Origin: Coprobacter sp. | Lineage (GTDB): Bacteria > Bacteroidota > Bacteroidia > Bacteroidales > Coprobacteraceae | DNA: 42,127 nucleotides | NCBI GenBank assembly: GCA_022511245.1 | Contig: JAFLRV010000004.1 | Coordinates: 1 to 42,127 of the forward strand | Reading direction: 5' to 3' | In this document: piece by piece, positions 20,441 through 38,797 of the stretch | Numbering within the stretch: the first letter of the stretch is position 1 | Layout of the letters: every line of letters begins with the position of its first letter | The notes under the pieces: model-generated | Seen by the model: only the letters and a program-made list of their open reading frames with translations | What the model was told of the DNA's origin: nothing | Database searches by the model: none | Translations under genes and position numbers: made by a program

Positions 20441-21613
20441 ATGAAAATTAGCAATTTTATGACTCATCCGTTTCAGAAAGTCATTATCATCGCCTTGTCT
20501 CTGTCACTGTTTGCCTGTGACAAAAAAGGACAAACCTCGCAAAATGCCGTACCGGAATACGCTGTTATCACCCTTGCTCCCGAAGCCATAGAGCTTAACA
20601 GCAGCTATCCTGCCACGATAAAAGGCTGCCAGGATATCGAAATCAGACCCAACGTCGGCGGATTCATTACTAAATTGTGCGTAGACGAAGGCTCCATAGT
20701 GCGAAAAGGACAACTCTTGTTTGTTATCGACCCCATTCCGTATCAGGAAGCGGTCAAGGTAGCCGAAGCCAACGTCAAGGTAGCCGAAGCCAACGCCGCA
20801 ACAGCAGAACTTACGGTCAACAACAAAAGAGAACTCCGAAAGAAAGATATCATCAGCGATTACGACCTGCAGATGGCCGAAAACCAGCTGGCCACCCAAA
20901 AAGCCGTGCTGGCACAGGCACAAGCACAGCTGACCACCGCCCGCAACAACCTTTCCTACACGCAGGTAACCAGTCCGTCCGACGGTATCGTCGGCAACAT
21001 ACCTTTCCGTACCGGAAGTCTGGTCGGCCCCACATCGGCTACTCCGCTGACCGTCGTTTCAGACATTACCAAAATGTATGTATATTTCTCGATGAACGAG
21101 AAACAAATTCTTGACCTTACCCGGCAGGGGAACGGCGCTCTGGCCCAAATGCCCGAAGTGCAGTTGCAGCTGGCAGACGGAAGCATCTATCCCGAAACCG
21201 GAAAAATCGAGACGTTGAGCGGTGTTATCGACCCGGCTACCGGAGCAGCCAGCATCCGGGCGACATTCTCGAATCCCGACAAAATACTGCGCAGCGGCGG
21301 TTCCGGTAAGATTCTGGTACCCGTCAAAAACGATGCCGCCCTTGTTATTCCTCAAAAAGCCACCTACGAAATACAGGACAAACGGTATGCATTCGTAGTG
21401 AACGACAGCTCGACCGTAAAGATTGCCGGCATCGAGGTGCTGCCTATCAATAACGGGCAGCAATATGTCGTCACCTCCGGACTGAATGCCGGCGACCGCA
21501 TCGTAGTCGAAGGCGTGGGAACGACCGTCCGGGACGGAATGACCATCAAACCCATTACCCCCGAAGAATCGGCAGCCAAAATCCAACAGGTTACACAAGC
21601 CGCCCAAAAATAA
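20441..21613 (+). CDS. RND efflux periplasmic adaptor (membrane fusion) lipoprotein, AcrA/MexA-like
   Basis: Lipobox LFAC, lipoyl/hairpin segments, 'YTQVTSPSDGIVGNIPFRTGSLVGP', 'LRSGGSGKILVPV'. Confidence 0.95.
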   Translation: MKISNFMTHPFQKVIIIALSLSLFACDKKGQTSQNAVPEYAVITLAPEAIELNSSYPATIKGCQDIEIRPNVGGFITKLCVDEGSIVRKGQLLFVIDPIPYQEAVKVAEANVKVAEANAATAELTVNNKRELRKKDIISDYDLQMAENQLATQKAVLAQAQAQLTTARNNLSYTQVTSPSDGIVGNIPFRTGSLVGPTSATPLTVVSDITKMYVYFSMNEKQILDLTRQGNGALAQMPEVQLQLADGSIYPETGKIETLSGVIDPATGAASIRATFSNPDKILRSGGSGKILVPVKNDAALVIPQKATYEIQDKRYAFVVNDSSTVKIAGIEVLPINNGQQYVVTSGLNAGDRIVVEGVGTTVRDGMTIKPITPEESAAKIQQVTQAAQK

Positions 21614-21672
21614 AATACACCGTCTATCTTGGATAAAGCGGCACATTTCATCCGCATAAACACATCAGAATT

Positions 21673-24600
21673 ATGAAATTAGACAGATTTATAAAACGCC
21701 CGGTACTATCGACGGTAATCTCCATACTTATCGTCATATTGGGTATACTGGGACTTATATCGTTGCCGGTAACGCAATACCCGACTATAGCCCCGCCGAC
21801 CGTACAGGTAAGCACCTCCTACACCGGAGCCAATGCCCAGACGGTGCTGAACAGTGTCATCGCCCCGCTGGAAGAGCAGATTAACGGAGTGGAAAACATG
21901 ATGTATATGACCTCTACCGCCGCCAATACGGGAGAAGCCACTATTCAGGTATATTTCAAACAGGGAACCGACCCCGACATGGCCGCCGTAAACGTGCAGA
22001 ACCGGGTAGCCAAAGCGCAGGGATTCCTTCCCGCCGAAGTTACCCGTGTAGGTGTCATCACCAGCAAGCGGCAGACCAGTATGCTCATGAGTATTTCCGT
22101 GTTCAGTTCCGACGACCGGTACGACGAAACATTTCTCCAGAACTATGTAAAGATTAATCTGATACCTCAGATTCAGCGTGTGGCCGGTGTCGGCGACGCC
22201 ATGGTGCTGGGAGCCGACTATTCGATGCGTATATGGCTCAAGCCCGATGTTATGGCACAGTACAAGCTCATGCCGAGCGATATCTCCGCCATTCTGGCCG
22301 AACAGAACATCGAAGCCGCTCCGGGACAGTTCGGCGAAAGCGGCGAACAGTCGTTCCAGTACATCATGAAATACAAAGGACGCCTCTCCACCCCCGAAGA
22401 ATTTGAGGAAATTGTAGTGCGTGCCACCGAAGACGGAGAGGTGCTGCGGCTGAAAGACATAGCCCGCATCGAATTGGGCGGATTGTCCTACGGATTCGGT
22501 ACCCGTACCAACGGACATCCCGGCGTAACGGCCATGATATTCCAGACCGCCGGCTCCAATGCCACAGAAATTATCAACAACATCAGCGAAATTCTCAAAG
22601 AGTCGTCCAAAGATTTTCCGCCGGGCGTGAAATACGATGTCCTGCTGAATGCCAATGATTTCCTCTACGCCTCTATCCATGAGGTATTGAAAACGCTGTT
22701 GGAAGCATTTATTCTGGTATTCCTCGTGGTATTCATCTTCTTGCAGGATTTCCGTTCGACACTGATTCCGGCCATTGCCATTCCGGTGGCGCTGGTAGGT
22801 ACATTCTGCGTACTTTCTTTAATCGGATTCAGCCTTAACCTGCTCACCCTCTGTGCCCTTGTACTGGCCATTGCGATAGTGGTCGATGATGCGATAGTAG
22901 TCGTCGAAGCCGTACATGCCAAACTGGATCAAGGTTACAAGTCACCGATGAAAGCCTCTATCGATGCCATGAACGAGATCTCGGGTGCCATTGTTTCCAT
23001 TACGTTGGTCATGATGTCGGTATTTATCCCCGTAAGTTTCATGCCGGGAACCTCCGGAACCTTTTTCCGTCAGTTCGGTCTGACGATGGCTATCTCTATC
23101 GGTCTGTCGGCCGTGAACGCCCTTACGCTGAGTCCCGCACTCTGTGCGCTGTTCCTCAAACCCCATCAGGAGGACGGAGACAACAGCGGCAAAAAAAGTT
23201 TGATGAAACGGTTCCACACCGCCTTCAATACAGCATACGATGTCACCCTCGAAAAATACAAAAAGGGAGTCATGGTATTCATCAACAAAAAATGGTTGGG
23301 ATTCGCAGCCGTTGTCATCAGTATCGCAGCTTTGGTACTCTTGATGAAAAACACCCCGACCGGACTGGTGCCCAACGAAGACACCGGCACCTTCTTTGTC
23401 GTAGTCGATATGCCGCCGGCCACCTCGTTGGAACGGACAAAAGCCGCTTTGAAAGAAATCGACAACCTGATAGCATCGAACCCGGCCGTCAAGAGCCGTA
23501 CCGAGATTGCCGGTTACAGCTTCATCGCCGGACAGGGAAGTTCATACGGAACATTCATCTGCAAACTCAAGCCGTGGGAAGAGCGAGGCAAAGGGCAAGA
23601 TGTCAATTCAGTAGTGGGAACATTGTATATGCAGGCCATGAATCTGATTAAAGATGCCCGGGTGCTGGTATTTGCACCCCCGATGATTCCGGGATACAGT
23701 ATCACCAACGGTTTCGAACTGAATCTGCAGGACAAGACCGGAGGCGATTTGGACAAATTCTACTCCATCGCCCAGAACTTCCTGGCCAAACTGAACGAAC
23801 GGCCCGAAATTTCGGCCGCCCGCACCCTGTTTAACCCCAGTTATCCGCAATACATGGTGGATATCGACGTGGCCAAGTGCAAACAGGCCGGAATCAGTCC
23901 GAGCACCCTGCTGACCGCATTGCAAGGGTACTACGGCGGATTGTATGCCTCCAACTTCAACCGGTTCGGAAAACTCTACCGGGTCATGATACAGGCCGAT
24001 GCCAATTTCCGGGTCAATCCCGAAACGCTGAACCAGATTATGATTCGCAACGGCAACGACATGGCGCCTATCACCCAGTTCATGACCCTGCGTAAAGTAT
24101 ACGGTCCTGACAATATCAAGCGGTTCAACATGTTTACCGCCATGTCGATTAACGGTTCCCCCGCACCCGGCTACAGTTCAGGACAAGCCATTCAGGCAAT
24201 TGAAGAGGTAGCCAAAGAAACGCTGCCGGCCGGCTACGGATACGAATATTCCGGTATGACACGGGAAGAACAAAGTTCCAGCGGAAATACCACCTATCTG
24301 ATATTCCTGCTCTGTTTCGTATTCGTTTACCTGCTGTTGAGCGCACAGTACGAAAGCTATATCCTGCCGTTGGCCGTTATCCTTTCGGTACCGTTCGGAT
24401 TGATGGGCAGTTTCATCTTTGCCCAGTTCATGGGAGTAGAAAACAACATCTACATGCAAATCGCCCTGATTATGCTCATCGGTCTGTTGGCCAAAAATGC
24501 CATACTTATCGTTGAGTTCGCCCTCGAACGCCGGCAAACCGGAATGAGCATCGTTTCGGCAGCCGTTCTCGGAGCTTCGGCCCGGTTGCGTCCCATCCTG

Positions 24601-24852
24601 ATGACCTCTCTGGCAATGGTTATCGGATTGCTGCCCATGATGTTCGCACACGGTGTAGGAGCCAACGGAAACAGTACACTGGGAACCGGAGCCATCGGAG
24701 GTATGTTCATCGGTATGATTTGCCAGATATTCGTCGTACCGACCCTGTTCGTAGCTTTCCAGAGTTTGCAGGAAAAATTCAAACCTATCGAATGGAAAGA
24801 CCTCGACAATACCGAATTCGAAGCCGATATCGAGCAATATATCAGCAAGTAA
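21673..24852 (+). CDS. RND efflux transporter permease, AcrB/MexB-like (HAE1)
   Basis: 1059 aa, 'FIKRPVLSTVISILIVILGILGLISLPVTQYPTIAPPTVQVSTSYTGANAQTV', 'LAIAIVVDDAIVVVEAV', 'SAVNALTLSPALCALFLKP'. Confidence 0.97.
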   Translation: MKLDRFIKRPVLSTVISILIVILGILGLISLPVTQYPTIAPPTVQVSTSYTGANAQTVLNSVIAPLEEQINGVENMMYMTSTAANTGEATIQVYFKQGTDPDMAAVNVQNRVAKAQGFLPAEVTRVGVITSKRQTSMLMSISVFSSDDRYDETFLQNYVKINLIPQIQRVAGVGDAMVLGADYSMRIWLKPDVMAQYKLMPSDISAILAEQNIEAAPGQFGESGEQSFQYIMKYKGRLSTPEEFEEIVVRATEDGEVLRLKDIARIELGGLSYGFGTRTNGHPGVTAMIFQTAGSNATEIINNISEILKESSKDFPPGVKYDVLLNANDFLYASIHEVLKTLLEAFILVFLVVFIFLQDFRSTLIPAIAIPVALVGTFCVLSLIGFSLNLLTLCALVLAIAIVVDDAIVVVEAVHAKLDQGYKSPMKASIDAMNEISGAIVSITLVMMSVFIPVSFMPGTSGTFFRQFGLTMAISIGLSAVNALTLSPALCALFLKPHQEDGDNSGKKSLMKRFHTAFNTAYDVTLEKYKKGVMVFINKKWLGFAAVVISIAALVLLMKNTPTGLVPNEDTGTFFVVVDMPPATSLERTKAALKEIDNLIASNPAVKSRTEIAGYSFIAGQGSSYGTFICKLKPWEERGKGQDVNSVVGTLYMQAMNLIKDARVLVFAPPMIPGYSITNGFELNLQDKTGGDLDKFYSIAQNFLAKLNERPEISAARTLFNPSYPQYMVDIDVAKCKQAGISPSTLLTALQGYYGGLYASNFNRFGKLYRVMIQADANFRVNPETLNQIMIRNGNDMAPITQFMTLRKVYGPDNIKRFNMFTAMSINGSPAPGYSSGQAIQAIEEVAKETLPAGYGYEYSGMTREEQSSSGNTTYLIFLLCFVFVYLLLSAQYESYILPLAVILSVPFGLMGSFIFAQFMGVENNIYMQIALIMLIGLLAKNAILIVEFALERRQTGMSIVSAAVLGASARLRPILMTSLAMVIGLLPMMFAHGVGANGNSTLGTGAIGGMFIGMICQIFVVPTLFVAFQSLQEKFKPIEWKDLDNTEFEADIEQYISK

Positions 24853-24873
24853 GAACCTTTTAAAAACAAAAGA

Positions 24874-26250
24874 ATGAAAAAACAAATCTTATATACCGTA
24901 TGTCTGGCAACCTTGATGAGCAGCTGCCACATATACAAATCCTACGACCGTCCCGATGTCGACATACAAGGACTTTACCGGGATCCTGTCTCTGTACGGG
25001 ATACGCTGGTGTCGGACACGGCCAATATGGGAAATCTGCCTTGGAAAGAGATTTTCACCGACCCGCAGCTGCAAATACTCATACAAACCGGACTGGAACG
25101 CAATACCGACCTCCAGAACGCCCTGTTGAGCGTAAAACAGGCCGAAGCCGGACTGACAGCCGCCCGCATGGCCTATGTCCCCACACTGGCGCTGGCTCCG
25201 CAGGGAGGTATCAGCAGTTTCAACAACATCTCCTCCGGATGGACATGGACAGCTCCGGTCGCTGCCAGCTGGGAAATCGACATCTTCGGCAAGCTGCTGA
25301 ATGCCAAACGGAAAGCCAAAGTAACACTGTTGCAAAGCGACGATTACCGGCAGGCCGTACAAACACAAGTTATCTCGGCCATCGCTTCATATTACTATAC
25401 CCTGCTGATGCTCGACAAACAACTTGCCATCAGCCAGGAAACAGTCGTATTGTGGGACAAAAGCCTGGAGACGATGCGGGCCATGAAACAGGCCGGCATG
25501 CTTAACGAAGCGGCCATTGCCCAAAGCGAAGCCAACAGCTATATGGTCAAGACCTCCATTCCCGAAATGAAAAAACAGATTCGGGAAATCGAAAACGCCC
25601 TGTCGCTGCTGCTCCGGCAGGTACCCCAGACCATAGAGCGGGGAACTCTCGATGCACAGACCTTCCCGGCAGCCATTCAGGTCGGCATCCCGGCACAGCT
25701 GCTCTCGAACCGGCCCGATGTAAAAGCGGCTGAAATGGCTCTGGCCGCCGCCTATTACGATACCAACAGTGCCCGTGCCAACTTTTACCCGCAGCTTACA
25801 CTCTCCGGGACACTCGGCTGGACCAATCAGGCCGGAAGCATGATTATCAATCCGGGCAAAATGATTCTTTCGGCACTGGGTTCACTCACCCAACCCCTCC
25901 TCTATCGGGGAGCCAATATCGCCCAGCTGAAAATAGCCAAAGCCCGGCAGGAAAGTGCCAGACTCAGCTTCGAACAGGCTCTTCTGAATGCCGGCAGCGA
26001 AGTGAGCAACGCCCTTTCCCAATACGAAACGGAACGGCAAAAAAGCGCACTGCGGGAAAAACAGATTGAATCGCTGGAAAAATCGGTCGAATACACCCAG
26101 CAGCTGCTCACGCTGGGCACCTCCACCTATCTGGAAGTACTTACCGCACAACAATCGCTGTTGAGCGCACAACTCTCGGAAGTTACCGACAATTTCCAGC
26201 AGATGCAAGCCATCGTCAACCTCTACCGGGCATTGGGCGGAGGAAGATAA
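24874..26250 (+). CDS. TolC/NodT-family outer membrane efflux lipoprotein
   Basis: Lipobox LMSSC, 'ASWEIDIFGKLLNAKRKAK', 'LLSNRPDVKAAEMALAAAYYDTNSARANFYPQLTLSG'. Confidence 0.95.
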   Translation: MKKQILYTVCLATLMSSCHIYKSYDRPDVDIQGLYRDPVSVRDTLVSDTANMGNLPWKEIFTDPQLQILIQTGLERNTDLQNALLSVKQAEAGLTAARMAYVPTLALAPQGGISSFNNISSGWTWTAPVAASWEIDIFGKLLNAKRKAKVTLLQSDDYRQAVQTQVISAIASYYYTLLMLDKQLAISQETVVLWDKSLETMRAMKQAGMLNEAAIAQSEANSYMVKTSIPEMKKQIREIENALSLLLRQVPQTIERGTLDAQTFPAAIQVGIPAQLLSNRPDVKAAEMALAAAYYDTNSARANFYPQLTLSGTLGWTNQAGSMIINPGKMILSALGSLTQPLLYRGANIAQLKIAKARQESARLSFEQALLNAGSEVSNALSQYETERQKSALREKQIESLEKSVEYTQQLLTLGTSTYLEVLTAQQSLLSAQLSEVTDNFQQMQAIVNLYRALGGGR

Positions 26251-30602: not shown

Positions 30603-31265
30603 TTACCACTGTATCGGCGTTATACCGTGTTCCTGCAAATAGGCGTTAGTCCGGCTGAAATGACGGTTACCGAAAAATCCCCGATGCGCCGACAAAGGAG
30701 AGGGATGCGGTGAGGTCAGCACCAGATGTTTCGAACGGTCGATGAAACTGCCTTTCCGCTGGGCATAAGAGCCCCACAGGATAAAGACCAGATGCTCCCG
30801 TTCGGCCGCCAGCCGGTGAATAACGGCATCGGTAAACTGTTCCCAACCCCGATTCTGATGCGACCCGGCCTGGTGGGCCCGCACTGTCAGCGTGGCATTG
30901 AGCAGCAATACACCCTGCGCCGCCCAGCGGGACAAATCACCGCTTGCTGGGACAGGAGCTCCCAAATCGGAAGCTATCTCTTTAAAAATATTCTGCAACG
31001 AAGGCGGGAAAGGGATTCCGTCGTTAACCGAGAAACACAATCCGTTGGCTTGTCGGGGTTCATGATAGGGGTCTTGTCCCAGTATGACCACCTTTACCCG
31101 GTCGAAAGGGCAGGCATCAAAGGCATTAAACATCTGCCGGCCGGGAGGATATACGGTAGCGGTCGCATATTCCGAACGGACAAAATCGGTAAGTTTCACA
31201 AAATAATCTTTGTCAAACTCCTCCTGTAAACGCTGTTTCCAGCTCTCCTCTATACGGACATCCAT
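30603..31265 (-). CDS. ung: Uracil-DNA glycosylase
   Basis: 'VVILGQDPYHEPRQANGLCFSV', 'GVLLLNATLTVRAHQAGSH', 'VLTSPHPSPLSAHRGFFGNRHFSRTN'. True start MDVRIEES at 31265. Confidence 0.97.
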   Translation of the reverse strand: MDVRIEESWKQRLQEEFDKDYFVKLTDFVRSEYATATVYPPGRQMFNAFDACPFDRVKVVILGQDPYHEPRQANGLCFSVNDGIPFPPSLQNIFKEIASDLGAPVPASGDLSRWAAQGVLLLNATLTVRAHQAGSHQNRGWEQFTDAVIHRLAAEREHLVFILWGSYAQRKGSFIDRSKHLVLTSPHPSPLSAHRGFFGNRHFSRTNAYLQEHGITPIQW

Positions 31266-31296
31266 AAATATTGTATTAAACTTTTTGATATATCTA

Positions 31297-31327
31297 TTTG
31301 CAAAGCTACAAATATTTCTTACATTTG
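31297..31327 (+). promoter_or_regulatory. Consensus Bacteroidota promoter for tRNA-Arg
   Basis: TTTG (31297-31300) - N19 - TACATTTG (31320-31327), 10 nt before the tRNA 5' end. Confidence 0.75.
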
Positions 31328-31337
31328 CACTCCGAAA

Positions 31338-31410
31338 GGCCCCATAGTTTAGTGAATAGAACGTCAGATTCCGGTTCTGAAGGTCGCAGGTTTGAGTCCT
31401 GCTGGGGTCA
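31338..31410 (+). tRNA. tRNA-Arg(CCG)
   Basis: 73-nt cloverleaf: acceptor GGCCCCA/TGGGGTC, D stem GTTT/GAAC, anticodon arm TCAGA-TTCCGGT-TCTGA, T arm GCAGG-TTTGAGT-CCTGC; CCA not encoded. Confidence 0.93.
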
Positions 31411-31413
31411 CTG

Positions 31414-31450
31414 AACGAGACGAATGACATTTCATTGGTCTCGTTTTTCT
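31414..31450 (+). terminator. Terminator downstream of tRNA-Arg
   Basis: AACGAGAC-g-AATGA-loop-TCATT-g-GTCTCGTT followed by TTTCTTTTT. Confidence 0.85.
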
Positions 31451-32884: not shown

Positions 32885-34147
32885 TTATGCGCCGAAATCG
32901 TCGTACATCAGCATTTCACGGGGAACGCCCAAATCCCACAACATTTTCTTGACGGCATTGGCCATCGGGCCGGGACCGCACATGTAATATTCGATATCTT
33001 CGGGAGCATCGTGCTCTTTCAGATAATTGTCATATATTACCTGATGGATAAATCCGGTATAGCCAGTCCAGTTGTCTTCGGGCTGCGGGTCGCTCAATGC
33101 GATATGGAACGAGAAATTGGGAAATTCCCGTTCGATGGCCCGGAAATCTTCTTCGTAGAAAATCTCCCGGCGCGAGCGGGCGCCATACCAGTACGATATT
33201 TTGCGGTCGGTCGTCTTCAGCGTGTGGAACAGATGCAGCAGGTGCGAACGCAAGGGGGCCATACCGGCTCCGCCTCCGATATAGAGCATCTCCCGTTTGG
33301 TATCGAGAATATGGAACTCCCCGTAAGGGCCCGATACGGTCACTTTGTCGCCCGGCTTGCGGGTAAAGATGTAAGAGGAGCATATACCCGGCTTGATGCC
33401 CTGCGCCCACGTTCCGGTATTGCGGTCGAACGGCGGCGTGGCGATACGGATGTTCAGCATCACGATATTGCCCTCAGCGGGGTGGTTGGCCATCGAATAG
33501 GCCCGATAGGTTTCCTCCTCGTTACGGCAGACAAGTCCCCACATCTTGTATTTGTCCCACTCGTCGTGGTATTCCTTGTCGATATCCATGTCGGAAAACT
33601 TGATATCGTATTTGGGCACATCAATCTGAATATAGCTGCCCGGCTTGAAATTGAGGGTTTCTCCTTCCGGCAGCCGCACGACGAACTCTTTGATAAAAGA
33701 GGCGACATTGCGGTTCGAAACCACTTCACATTCCCACTTTTTGATACCCAGTACCTCTTGGGGTATCTGTATTTCCAAATCGTTCTTGACTTTTACCTGA
33801 CAGGCCAGCCGGTAGTGGTCATGTATCTGTTTGCGGGTAAAAAAGCCCGTTTCGGTAGGCAGTATCTCACCGCCGCCTTCCAGTACCCGGCAGCGGCACA
33901 TTCCGCAGCTGCCGCCCCCGCCGCAGGCCGAAGGCAAAAATATTTTGTTGGCCGACAACGAAGCCAGCAGCGTCGTACCAGCATCGGTCACCACCTCCCG
34001 CTCCTTGTCGTTGATGTCGATGGTCAGTTTCCCTGAAGGGGTCAACTTGTTTTTAGCCAGCAGCAATACGGCCACCAACACCAGTATCAACAGCAGAAAT
34101 ATAACTACGGCAGCTCCCACTGTGGGATTTATCAGTAATAATGTCAT
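32885..34147 (-). CDS. nqrF: Na+-translocating NADH:quinone reductase subunit F
   Basis: 2Fe-2S motif 'LPSACGGGGSCGMCRCRV', FAD/NAD motifs 'RAYSMANHPAE', 'YIGGGAGMAPLRSHLLHL', 'YYMCGPGPMANAVKKML'. Confidence 0.98.
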   Translation of the reverse strand: MTLLLINPTVGAAVVIFLLLILVLVAVLLLAKNKLTPSGKLTIDINDKEREVVTDAGTTLLASLSANKIFLPSACGGGGSCGMCRCRVLEGGGEILPTETGFFTRKQIHDHYRLACQVKVKNDLEIQIPQEVLGIKKWECEVVSNRNVASFIKEFVVRLPEGETLNFKPGSYIQIDVPKYDIKFSDMDIDKEYHDEWDKYKMWGLVCRNEEETYRAYSMANHPAEGNIVMLNIRIATPPFDRNTGTWAQGIKPGICSSYIFTRKPGDKVTVSGPYGEFHILDTKREMLYIGGGAGMAPLRSHLLHLFHTLKTTDRKISYWYGARSRREIFYEEDFRAIEREFPNFSFHIALSDPQPEDNWTGYTGFIHQVIYDNYLKEHDAPEDIEYYMCGPGPMANAVKKMLWDLGVPREMLMYDDFGA

Positions 34148-34175
34148 TGTATCTTTCGTTTAAATTGAAACCCGA

Positions 34176-34790
34176 TTATAGTTTAATTCCCAAAAAGCTC
34201 ATAAAGGCGATACCCATCAGTCCGGTGGCGATAAAGGTAATCCCTATGCCCCGCAGCGGTGCCGGTACGTTGGAATAGGCCAGTTTTTCCCGAATAGCGG
34301 CAATTCCCATAATGGCCAGCAGCCATCCGATACCCGAACCTAACCCGTAAACCGTTGCAGCTCCCACCGACGGGAATGCCCGCTGCTGCATAAAAAGCGA
34401 ACCGCCCAAAATGGCGCAGTTAACGGCTATCAGCGGCAGGAAGATACCTAACGAGGCATACAGGGCCGGAGCGTATTTCTCGACGAACATCTCGACCAGC
34501 TGCACCATAGAGGCGATAACGGCGATAAACATAATCAGACTGAGGAAACTCAAATCGACCGTTTTATACTCTTCGCCGAGCCACTGCAAGGCTCCCGGTT
34601 TCAGGATATAGTTTTCGAGCATATAATCTACCGGCAGGGTAATTACCAGCACAAAAGTTACGGCCAGTCCCAGACCGATAGCGGTCTTTACACTTTTCGA
34701 TACGGCCAAATAAGAACACATCCCTAAAAAGTAGGCAAATATCATATTGTCTATAAAAATAGACCGGATAAACAGATTCAGATTTTCCAT
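34176..34790 (-). CDS. nqrE: Na+-translocating NADH:quinone reductase subunit E
   Basis: 'IDNMIFAYFLGMCSYLAVSKSVKTAIGLGLAVTFVLV', 'NCAILGGSLFM'. Confidence 0.97.
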   Translation of the reverse strand: MENLNLFIRSIFIDNMIFAYFLGMCSYLAVSKSVKTAIGLGLAVTFVLVITLPVDYMLENYILKPGALQWLGEEYKTVDLSFLSLIMFIAVIASMVQLVEMFVEKYAPALYASLGIFLPLIAVNCAILGGSLFMQQRAFPSVGAATVYGLGSGIGWLLAIMGIAAIREKLAYSNVPAPLRGIGITFIATGLMGIAFMSFLGIKL

Positions 34791-34814
34791 TTTTCGCTTG
34801 TTTTTATGTAGTTC

Positions 34815-35441
34815 TTATCTTTTTTCCTGCAACTCTTTGTTTCTCGCCCGGTGTACCCAGATGATACAGGCTGCCGTTATCAACGCCATCGGAGGCAATA
34901 TCATCAAACCGTTGTTTTCGTAGCCCCAGTCGTAAAAAATCTGCGGAACGACCTGATAACCGAACAGGGTTCCCGAACCCAGCAATTCCCGGAAGAAAGC
35001 CACGATAACCAGAATAATCCCGTAACCGATACCGTTGCCTACGCCATCGAGGAAAGAGTCCCACGGGCCGTTACCCAAAGCAAAGGCTTCGAGACGTCCC
35101 ATCAATATACAGTTGGTAATAATCAGTCCCACAAATACCGACAACTGTTTGCTTACATCGTAGGCGTAGGCCTTCAGCACCTGATCTACGATAATCACCA
35201 GTGCGGCGACCACAACCAGCTGTACGATGATACGGATGCTATTGGGAATAGTATTCCGCAGCAGCGATATGATGACATTGGCAAACGCCAGTACGGCGGT
35301 TACCGACACCGCCATGACAAAAGCCGGTTCCAATTTGGCGGTTACCGCCAGAGCCGAGCAGATACCCAATACCTGCACGATAACCGGATTATTTTTCGAG
35401 AGGGGGCCGAGCAATACTTGTTTCGTCTTTTTCGATATCAT
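34815..35441 (-). CDS. nqrD: Na+-translocating NADH:quinone reductase subunit D
   Basis: '[28 protein letters not shown]', '[34 protein letters not shown]'. Confidence 0.97.
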
Positions 35442-35456
35442 ATTTTCTTCCTCCGC

Positions 35457-36164
35457 TTATTTTTTTAATGACTCCAAAAATTTCTGATACGGGGTCAGAC
35501 AGTTCTGCATCATCGACTGCACCCCTTTGCTGGTAATCGTTCCGCCCGATATGGCATCGACATAATCGGCTCCGTCAACGGGTTTCTGTCCTTTTTTCTC
35601 TACCGTTACCGATTTGAACACACCGTCGATAAAAAGCCGTTTTCCCTGATACTGGTCCGAGAAAGCCGGTTTTTCGATTTCGGCTCCCAGTCCCGGCGTT
35701 TCGCCCTGATGAGCGAAATAAGCACCATAAATCGTATCGCCACCGGCATCGACCGAAACATATCCCCAGATGGGGCCCCACAATCCGGCGCCGTACATCG
35801 GGAAGATGTATTTCTCGGAACCGTCATCCAGACGGCATACGAAAACGGGCAGCTCCCGCTCTCCGGCCGGTCGTTTCACCTGCACGGCCACATCGACAAG
35901 GAAGGCATCGCCGGGAACCCGGTTTCCCTGTTCGTCGACCAGATAGGAATCAACGATATATTTTTTATACAAGTCTTCCGCATCCTTTGCATCGGAAGCG
36001 ATGTTGACCGAACTCAATATCTGTTTCATCTTGTCAATCCGGACATTCTGGGTCTGCGCCGGCTTCAGGGCCAATGCGGCCAAAGCCAGTACCGCAGCTA
36101 CCACAACCACCATGACAGCGGCATATATCACCGTATAAACATTACTCTGTTTGTTCATCTTCAT
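35457..36164 (-). CDS. nqrC: Na+-translocating NADH:quinone reductase subunit C
   Basis: 'LLNNEL'-type flanks absent by eye but 'MYGAGLWGPIWGYVSV', 'GETPGLGAEIEKP', 'DAISGGTITSKGVQSMM' flavinylation-site context and operon position fit. Start at 36164 preferred over 36176. Confidence 0.95.
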   Translation of the reverse strand: MKMNKQSNVYTVIYAAVMVVVVAAVLALAALALKPAQTQNVRIDKMKQILSSVNIASDAKDAEDLYKKYIVDSYLVDEQGNRVPGDAFLVDVAVQVKRPAGERELPVFVCRLDDGSEKYIFPMYGAGLWGPIWGYVSVDAGGDTIYGAYFAHQGETPGLGAEIEKPAFSDQYQGKRLFIDGVFKSVTVEKKGQKPVDGADYVDAISGGTITSKGVQSMMQNCLTPYQKFLESLKK

Positions 36165-36172
36165 TTCTCCTT

Positions 36173-37387
36173 TCATGCGTTAGTTCCGGCAGCCCGTTTG
36201 ATTCTCCGTTTCATGTTGCGGCCCACCACGAAATAGTCGATAAGCGGGGCAAACACATTCATCAGCAATACCGCCAGCATGGCTCCTTCGGGATAACCGT
36301 TGTTATACACCCGGATGACAATGGCGACAACCCCGATTAAAAAGCCGTATATGTATTTCCCGGCGGTCGTGCGGGCGCCGGTCACCGGGTCGGTGGCCAT
36401 AAAGACAGCGGCAAAAGCAAATCCGCCCAGACAAATCTGTTCGACGGGAGTCAGCAGCGAAGCCGGATATACGGGTGAGGCAAACAGATGGGCCACATAT
36501 CCCATACACAACCCGCCGGCAAATACCGACAGCATGATGCGCCAGCTGGCTACGCGGGTAAAGAGCAGTATCGCCGCCCCGATGAGAATGGCCAGCGTAG
36601 AGGTCTCCCCGATAGAACCGGGAATGAGCCCCACAAAGAAATCCCACAACGAAGCAGGCTCGCCCAGTATATTCGTAATGTGCAGCGACTCACCCGTCGA
36701 GGTGGCTACCTGACCCAGCGGCGTAGCTCCTGAAAAATTGTCGACCGTTGCTCCGGCTCCCAGTCCGAACGTATCGGAGGTGCGCACAAAAACGGCATCG
36801 CCCGACATTTTGGAGGGATAGGCAAAAAAGAGGAACGCCCGTGTAACCAATGCAACGTTGAACACGTTCATACCGGTACCGCCGAATACCTCTTTGGCAA
36901 AAATGACGGCAAAAGCCGTAGCCACAGCAATCATCCACAGCGGGGTGTCCACAGGAACAATCATCGGAATCAGGATACCCGATACCAGGAAACCCTCCTG
37001 TATCTCGTGACCTCGCAGCTGGGCAGCTGTAAACTCGATACCCAGTCCCACAGCATACGAAACGACGATTTGGGGAAGAACGGACAAAAAGCCGAAAAGG
37101 AACATCGCCCAGCCACTCACCGATGCGGCTTGTCCGATAGCCATATAGTGCTGATACCCGACATTGTACATGCCGAAAAGCAGGGCCGGAATCAACGCCA
37201 GAATAACCACCGACATCGTGCGTTTGGCATCGATGCTGTCGTGGATGTGTACACCCGTTTTCGAGGTCGAGGCCGGCACGAACAGAAATGTTTCGAAGCC
37301 TTCAAAAACAGACTGAAACTTTTCGAACCGGCCGCCCGGCTGGAAATCGGGTTTTATCTTGTCGATATAATTTCTTAATGCTTTCAA
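36173..37387 (-). CDS. nqrB: Na+-translocating NADH:quinone reductase subunit B
   Basis: 'HIHDSIDAKRTMSVVILALIPALLFGMYNVGYQ', 'DNFSGATPL' flavin attachment motif, 'FMATDPVTGARTTAGKYIYG'. Confidence 0.97.
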   Translation of the reverse strand: MKALRNYIDKIKPDFQPGGRFEKFQSVFEGFETFLFVPASTSKTGVHIHDSIDAKRTMSVVILALIPALLFGMYNVGYQHYMAIGQAASVSGWAMFLFGFLSVLPQIVVSYAVGLGIEFTAAQLRGHEIQEGFLVSGILIPMIVPVDTPLWMIAVATAFAVIFAKEVFGGTGMNVFNVALVTRAFLFFAYPSKMSGDAVFVRTSDTFGLGAGATVDNFSGATPLGQVATSTGESLHITNILGEPASLWDFFVGLIPGSIGETSTLAILIGAAILLFTRVASWRIMLSVFAGGLCMGYVAHLFASPVYPASLLTPVEQICLGGFAFAAVFMATDPVTGARTTAGKYIYGFLIGVVAIVIRVYNNGYPEGAMLAVLLMNVFAPLIDYFVVGRNMKRRIKRAAGTNA

Positions 37388-37417
37388 TGTTATATATTAT
37401 TTTGAGGTTATACCTGT

Positions 37418-38764
37418 TTAGTTCATCTCTTTCATCAGTTCGTCGAGACCTGTACGGATAATTTTCTGTATTTCCAGTTTCGAGGTATCCACGAACTCGC
37501 ACAAGGCAAAATCTTCCGGTGCCACTTCATAGATACCCAGATTTTCCATTTTCTCCACATCGAAAGCCAGCACTGCTTTGATGAGAAACTCCGGCAGGAT
37601 ATCCATCGGCAACACCCGGTCATATTCGCCCGACATGATAATGGCCCGCTCGCCGCCGTTCAGCCGGGCATCGAGCGTATAACTCTTTTTGGGGAACAAC
37701 CACGAAAAATAGGTGTGGCTTACACTGAATTTTTTCAATCCCGGCATGGCCCAGCCGAAGAGTTCGTGACAGTCGTCCCCTTCGGGGATAACGGTCAGCT
37801 GGCTGTGCGGCGCCCGCAGGTAATCCATTTCCGAAATATGCGTACCGGTCAGTACATTACCGCTGATAATGCGGCGATGGTAATCGGCCGGTGTCAACCG
37901 TCCCGCCAGCAACGAATCGATACGGGCTCCTACACAGGTGCGCACATACACCGGATTTGCCACTTCGGAACCGGTTACAGCTACCAGACGGGAGAAATCG
38001 ACCACGCCCTTATTGAGCAGACGACCGATAAACAACACATCGAAAGCGTTCATCGTCCACACGACCTCGCCTTTGTTCACCGGAGCGATATGCTGTATCT
38101 GCACCCCGACATTACCGGTCGGATGAGGGCCGTCGAAAAGAACAGATTCTACGTTCGACACGGCAATCGGAGCTTTGGCCGGCATCCCGACATACACCTT
38201 GCCCGAAGTGAGTTTGCGCAACGCATCCAGTCCGGTTTGGAAATGGGCCTCCTCCCCTTTCAGCACGAAACCGAAATCGGGGGCCAGCGGCGCCGTATCC
38301 CACGCCGTTACGAAAATATCCCGCGGCGTTACATCGGGATTGGCAATCACATCGTAGGGACGCTGTTTGATAAAGGGGAACATTCCGGCCTGCAACAACA
38401 GTTCCTTCATCTGCTCGCCCGACAGTTCGTCCGCCGACTTTTTCCCGAACTCCACAAAGGTCTGTTCGGCATCGGCCTTTATCGTAATGTCCAGTACCTT
38501 ACGGCGCTCGCCACGATTTACCGCCACCACTTCACCGCTTACCGGAGCGACGAATTTTATCTCCGGCCGGTTCTTGTCGTACATCAGCGGCGTTCCGGCA
38601 TCGACGTGCTCACCGGGTTTTACAACGACTTTGGGGACCACCCCGTGAAAGTCGTCCGGAACCAGTGCATAATATTCGCACGGAGCCGACTCCTCGACCA
38701 CCCCTGCCGGTTTCCCTTTCAGGTTGATATCAAGTCCTTTCTTTAATTTTATCACCTTCGTCAT
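37418..38764 (-). CDS. nqrA: Na+-translocating NADH:quinone reductase subunit A
   Basis: MTKVIKLKKGLDINLKGKPAG..., 'YFSWLFPKKSYTLDARLNGGERAIIMSGEYDRVLPMDI'. The 38992 start is an upstream extension. Confidence 0.96.
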   Translation of the reverse strand: MTKVIKLKKGLDINLKGKPAGVVEESAPCEYYALVPDDFHGVVPKVVVKPGEHVDAGTPLMYDKNRPEIKFVAPVSGEVVAVNRGERRKVLDITIKADAEQTFVEFGKKSADELSGEQMKELLLQAGMFPFIKQRPYDVIANPDVTPRDIFVTAWDTAPLAPDFGFVLKGEEAHFQTGLDALRKLTSGKVYVGMPAKAPIAVSNVESVLFDGPHPTGNVGVQIQHIAPVNKGEVVWTMNAFDVLFIGRLLNKGVVDFSRLVAVTGSEVANPVYVRTCVGARIDSLLAGRLTPADYHRRIISGNVLTGTHISEMDYLRAPHSQLTVIPEGDDCHELFGWAMPGLKKFSVSHTYFSWLFPKKSYTLDARLNGGERAIIMSGEYDRVLPMDILPEFLIKAVLAFDVEKMENLGIYEVAPEDFALCEFVDTSKLEIQKIIRTGLDELMKEMN

Positions 38765-38797
38765 ATCGACTTTAATAAAATATTTCAAAATAAAGTG

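Follow-up and report, generated by a model that had tools for sequence, protein, structure and literature searches.

Positions 19 and 56 of tRNA form a Watson-Crick pair, the outer face of which serves as the stacking platform of the elbow (PMC4810234), and the pair found there, G19-C56, has been termed conserved or invariant (PMC4810234, PMC7912444, PMC6337575). The exceptions found in the literature, tRNA-Pyl and the type II mitochondrial tRNAs among them, lose the canonical elbow contact (PMC7609411). Since G19-C56 is usually called invariant, bacterial sequences are normally silent on selection at these positions. No description of A19-U56, U19-A56, 19-56 covariation or the tRNA elbows of Bacteroidetes was found in the open-access literature, the subscription literature being outside the scope of the search.

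The gene studied here lies in a 42,127-nucleotide stretch of DNA from Coprobacter sp., which was analysed as a whole and is referred to as the window. With the canonical bacterial elongator tRNA-Arg(CCG) (RF00005) it shares the cloverleaf, the anticodon CCG, the 7-base T loop, U8, A14, G15-C48, G18-U55, U54-A58 and A20, whereas it has A19-U56 where the canonical tRNA has G19-C56. The departure from G19/C56 is common to tRNA-Pyl and the type II mitochondrial tRNAs. However, in those the contact between the D loop and the T loop is lost, while the window tRNA would keep it by compensation.

Structure and surroundings of the tRNA-Arg(CCG) gene

The features of the locus were determined as follows.

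30603-31268, minus strand: uracil-DNA glycosylase gene (ung), the divergent neighbour of the tRNA, named from its own sequence
31297-31327, plus strand: putative Bacteroidetes-type promoter TTTG-N19-TACATTTG, ending 10 bases 5' of the tRNA
31338-31410, plus strand: tRNA-Arg(CCG) gene with A19-U56, CCA not encoded (ARAGORN, Rfam RF00005, orthologues)
31351-31358, plus strand: D loop AGTGAATA, read as A14 G15 U16 G18 A19 A20 U20a A21 (sequence, orthologue-fixed numbering)
31391-31397, plus strand: T loop TTTGAGT, read as U54 U55 U56 G57 A58 G59 U60 (sequence, RF00005, homologue alignment)
31413-31446, plus strand: hairpin resembling a terminator, with a T-rich stretch after it (-18.4 kcal/mol, z -6.6)

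The tRNA-Arg(ccg) called by ARAGORN at 31338-31410 was the sole tRNA gene of the window. The Rfam model RF00005 aligned over the full length of the gene (model positions 1-71 of 71) with a score of 62.4 bits, the cut-off being 29. All stems were paired, the anticodon CCG was situated within the 7-base loop TTCCGGT, and the discriminator A73 corresponded to window base 31410. A19 and U56 were located at window bases 31355 and 31393, respectively, and the numbering of G18 and A19 was anchored by orthologue D loops longer by one base (AGCTGAATA, AGTTGAATA). The RF00005 match and the orthologue-fixed numbering confirmed both substitutions as they had been read in the initial annotation, and neither the comparison with Bacteroidales orthologues nor the alignment at 19 and 56 shifted them to G19 or C56. 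The other tertiary partners, described there as normal, were intact in the sequence and in the homologue alignment.

Among the features of class I elongator tRNAs, U8, A14, R15-Y48, G18-U55, U54-A58 and the 7-base T loop were all present, and G19-C56, which RF00005 does not require, was replaced by A19-U56. Judged from its sequence, the gene belongs to a variant class I elongator tRNA; the replacement is no ground for exclusion, as RF00005 is satisfied regardless. The D loop contains A20. This base is an arginine identity element in E. coli and may have the same bearing on the ArgRS of Coprobacter.

The promoter pattern TTTG-N19-TAnnTTTG had a single plus-strand match across the 42 kb window, at 31297-31327, and this promoter was kept within Coprobacter, in agreement with the consensus promoter proposed earlier. 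The terminator proposed together with it was supported in part: a hairpin with a T run was present on the same strand, but it was absent from the list of a generic terminator scanner. The C. secundus copy had no similar sequence downstream of the tRNA, showing that the hairpin is not conserved as sequence in that species. The arrangement of ung and the tRNA was observed also in Coprobacter and three further families. CGG, expected to be common, was the top arginine codon of the window (260 of 597). The conserved promoter, the ung synteny, the conservation in the genus and the matching codon demand are indirect signs that argue for a functional rather than a decayed gene, as had been supposed.

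Two further gene groups of the window were judged from their open reading frames: a run resembling an operon for the Na+-translocating NADH:quinone reductase (Nqr) at 32885-38770 on the minus strand, and an RND efflux-like trio (adaptor, pump and outer-membrane channel) at 20441-26250 on the plus strand.

The 19-56 pair in Bacteroidales tRNAs

A19-U56 was detected in the tRNA-Arg(CCG) of all five Coprobacter genomes (species) examined, and identical 73-base genes were found in another family. Among 104 Bacteroidales tRNA-Arg(CCG) genes with the full sequence parsed, a set collected in part for its resemblance to the window gene and hence leaning to A-U, 76 carried A19-U56, 24 G19-C56 and 4 U19-A56, with no mismatched pair. 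A pattern search with N at positions 19 and 56, which is free of this bias, resulted in 84 tRNA genes from 83 genomes: 48 A-U, 34 G-C, 2 U-A and no other combination (counts were read off the list of the search, and matches without the anticodon stem were left out). In the Bacteroidales sample, most tRNA-Arg(CCG) genes carry A19-U56. The exceptional status given to the pair in the initial annotation did not hold, as A19-U56 is routine in this tRNA across the order (76/104 and 48/84) and occurs also in tRNA-Arg(ACG) and tRNA-Gly(TCC).

Within the class but outside the order, the tRNA matches with a CCG anticodon read G19-C56; a few of these, starting with GATTA, were taken to carry G19 plus an extra loop base. 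Within the sampled Bacteroidota, A19-U56 was confined to Bacteroidales.

The U19-A56 genes, located at L095, L111, L140 and L292, represent a transversion of the elbow pair on both sides and belong to two families. The tRNA-Arg(CCG) of L091 (G346), from a genome of about 1.0 Mb, combined A37 (loop TTCCGAT) with the T loop TTTGATC; the other tRNA-Arg(CCG) genes had G37.

In the complete congener genome G001, A19-U56 was present in tRNA-Arg(CCG), in two tRNA-Arg(ACG) sequences and in tRNA-Gly(TCC), the remaining elongator types being G19-C56. The genome of the window itself held a second A19-U56 tRNA, a tRNA-Gly(TCC) at G000:C41:5783-5855 (L007) with the D loop AGTTGATA and the T loop TTTGAGT. 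The isoacceptors tRNA-Arg(ACG) and tRNA-Gly(TCC) are the closest counterparts of the window tRNA in genus and order, sharing the same replacement; they differ from it in isoacceptor type, and tRNA-Arg(ACG) retains A15-U48. Across the order, A19-U56 and G19-C56 both occurred in tRNA-Arg(ACG), always as Watson-Crick pairs, and the same was true of tRNA-Gly(TCC) among the matches listed. Outside the order, none of the listed tRNA-Gly(TCC) matches of Bacteroidota had A19-U56.

The states of the isoacceptors were uncoupled. In G019 tRNA-Arg(CCG) was A-U and tRNA-Arg(ACG) was G-C, while the reverse was found in G016, G024, G030, G043, G065 and G097. A genome-wide cause hitting all isoacceptors together is contradicted by these uncoupled states.

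Switching and covariation of the pair

To trace the changes of the 19-56 state, a tree of TsaD proteins from 76 genomes was used; it was built from a single gene by a quick search, which makes exact change counts soft. On the best tree the state of tRNA-Arg(CCG) changed at least 18 times, and well supported branches force a minimum of 10 changes of the A-U label. Positions 19 and 56 switched jointly in each of the 7 independent pairs compared on well supported branches (sign test, p 0.016). Together with the lack of mismatches in the 104 genes, this result bears out the earlier proposal that the two changes compensate each other. U19-A56 was found beside A19-U56 within one genus twice (G006/G222 and G384/G248). 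The many changes to A-U and U-A, always as a pair, are direct evidence from evolution that Watson-Crick pairing is needed here but no particular base pair is.

In tRNA-Arg(CCG) the elbow pair was associated with the Levitt pair: G15-C48 accompanied A-U and U-A, and A15-U48 accompanied 23 of the 24 G-C genes. This hinted that the strong Levitt pair G15-C48 is needed for A19-U56. The idea was contradicted by tRNA-Arg(ACG) (L165, G001), where A15-U48 occurs together with A19-U56, and the type of the Levitt pair therefore does not dictate the elbow pair.

Explanations of the A19-U56 pair

The window gene most probably encodes an ordinary elongator tRNA for CGG codons, the elbow of which would need a Watson-Crick pair and not G-C specifically. 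The D loop and the T loop would dock through A19-U56 instead of G19-C56. As A-U or U-A keeps the Watson-Crick geometry, the elbow would retain the flat outer surface used for stacking by RNase P, RNase Z and the ribosome. The substitution may be regarded as an old compensated change inside Bacteroidales, the pair being free to shift among G-C, A-U and U-A in three isoacceptors provided both partners change. The RNA is predicted to fold with A19-U56 and to be processed, charged and used normally, and the switching is probably mostly neutral. The order offers ready natural variants for probing how RNase P, the ribosome and modification enzymes recognize the elbow. Tools and annotators demanding GG/TTC may undervalue genuine Bacteroidales tRNAs.

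The association of the 15-48 and 19-56 pairs could instead stem from two old tRNA-Arg(CCG) lineages, one with A-U and G15-C48 and the other with G-C and A15-U48, which coexist in the order and replace one another through transfer or differential loss, leaving few of the apparent switches as mutations. The two pairs travel together in 76 + 23 of the 104 genes, plus the 4 U-A genes, and some related G-C and A-U genes differ elsewhere in the tRNA too, as the sister pair G092/G195 does at many positions; some switches may thus be gene replacements and not point changes. However, the N-at-19/56 search listed no genome with both types. G205 carries the G-C set of pairs on an otherwise A-U-type backbone, and G088 combines G19-C56 with G15-C48, which is otherwise typical of A-U genes. 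U19-A56 arises within A-U clades, and the A15-U48 with A19-U56 of tRNA-Arg(ACG) indicates that the pairs are not obligately linked. This history is possible but rather unlikely; it is compatible with the explanation given above of how the tRNA works.

Returning to an elbow that would need only a Watson-Crick pair, positions 19-56 may be under relaxed, isoacceptor-specific selection owing to an elbow-reading component of Bacteroidales that tolerates or prefers A-U and U-A. This extension is doubtful; if true, it would make the order a natural laboratory in which an "invariant" pair evolves freely within Watson-Crick limits.

An adaptive role, in which A19-U56 excludes or tunes an elbow-reading enzyme (a modification enzyme, a tRNase or RNase P) or alters the decoding of CGN/GGA, is improbable. 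Rather than being spread over all tRNAs, the pair is found mainly in three isoacceptors, of which two are CGN-reading arginine tRNAs; elsewhere C56 is required by one elbow enzyme, in the 2-thiolation of m5U54 in Thermus (PMC7912444). In contrast, the states are unlinked within genomes (G019 versus the six reverse cases), and the repeated switching speaks against a single shared selective agent.

A phage origin was rejected, just three distant phage tRNA-Arg matches being found, and no E. coli match was found. A sequencing error or a decaying pseudogene, suggested by the departure from a nearly invariant pair, has a negligible probability: both bases were present in four other, independent Coprobacter genomes and in the identical 73-base genes of another family, which rules out the error, and the paired stems, the 62.4-bit score and the kept promoter argue against decay. 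A change private to the window genome was ruled out by the orthologues across Bacteroidales.
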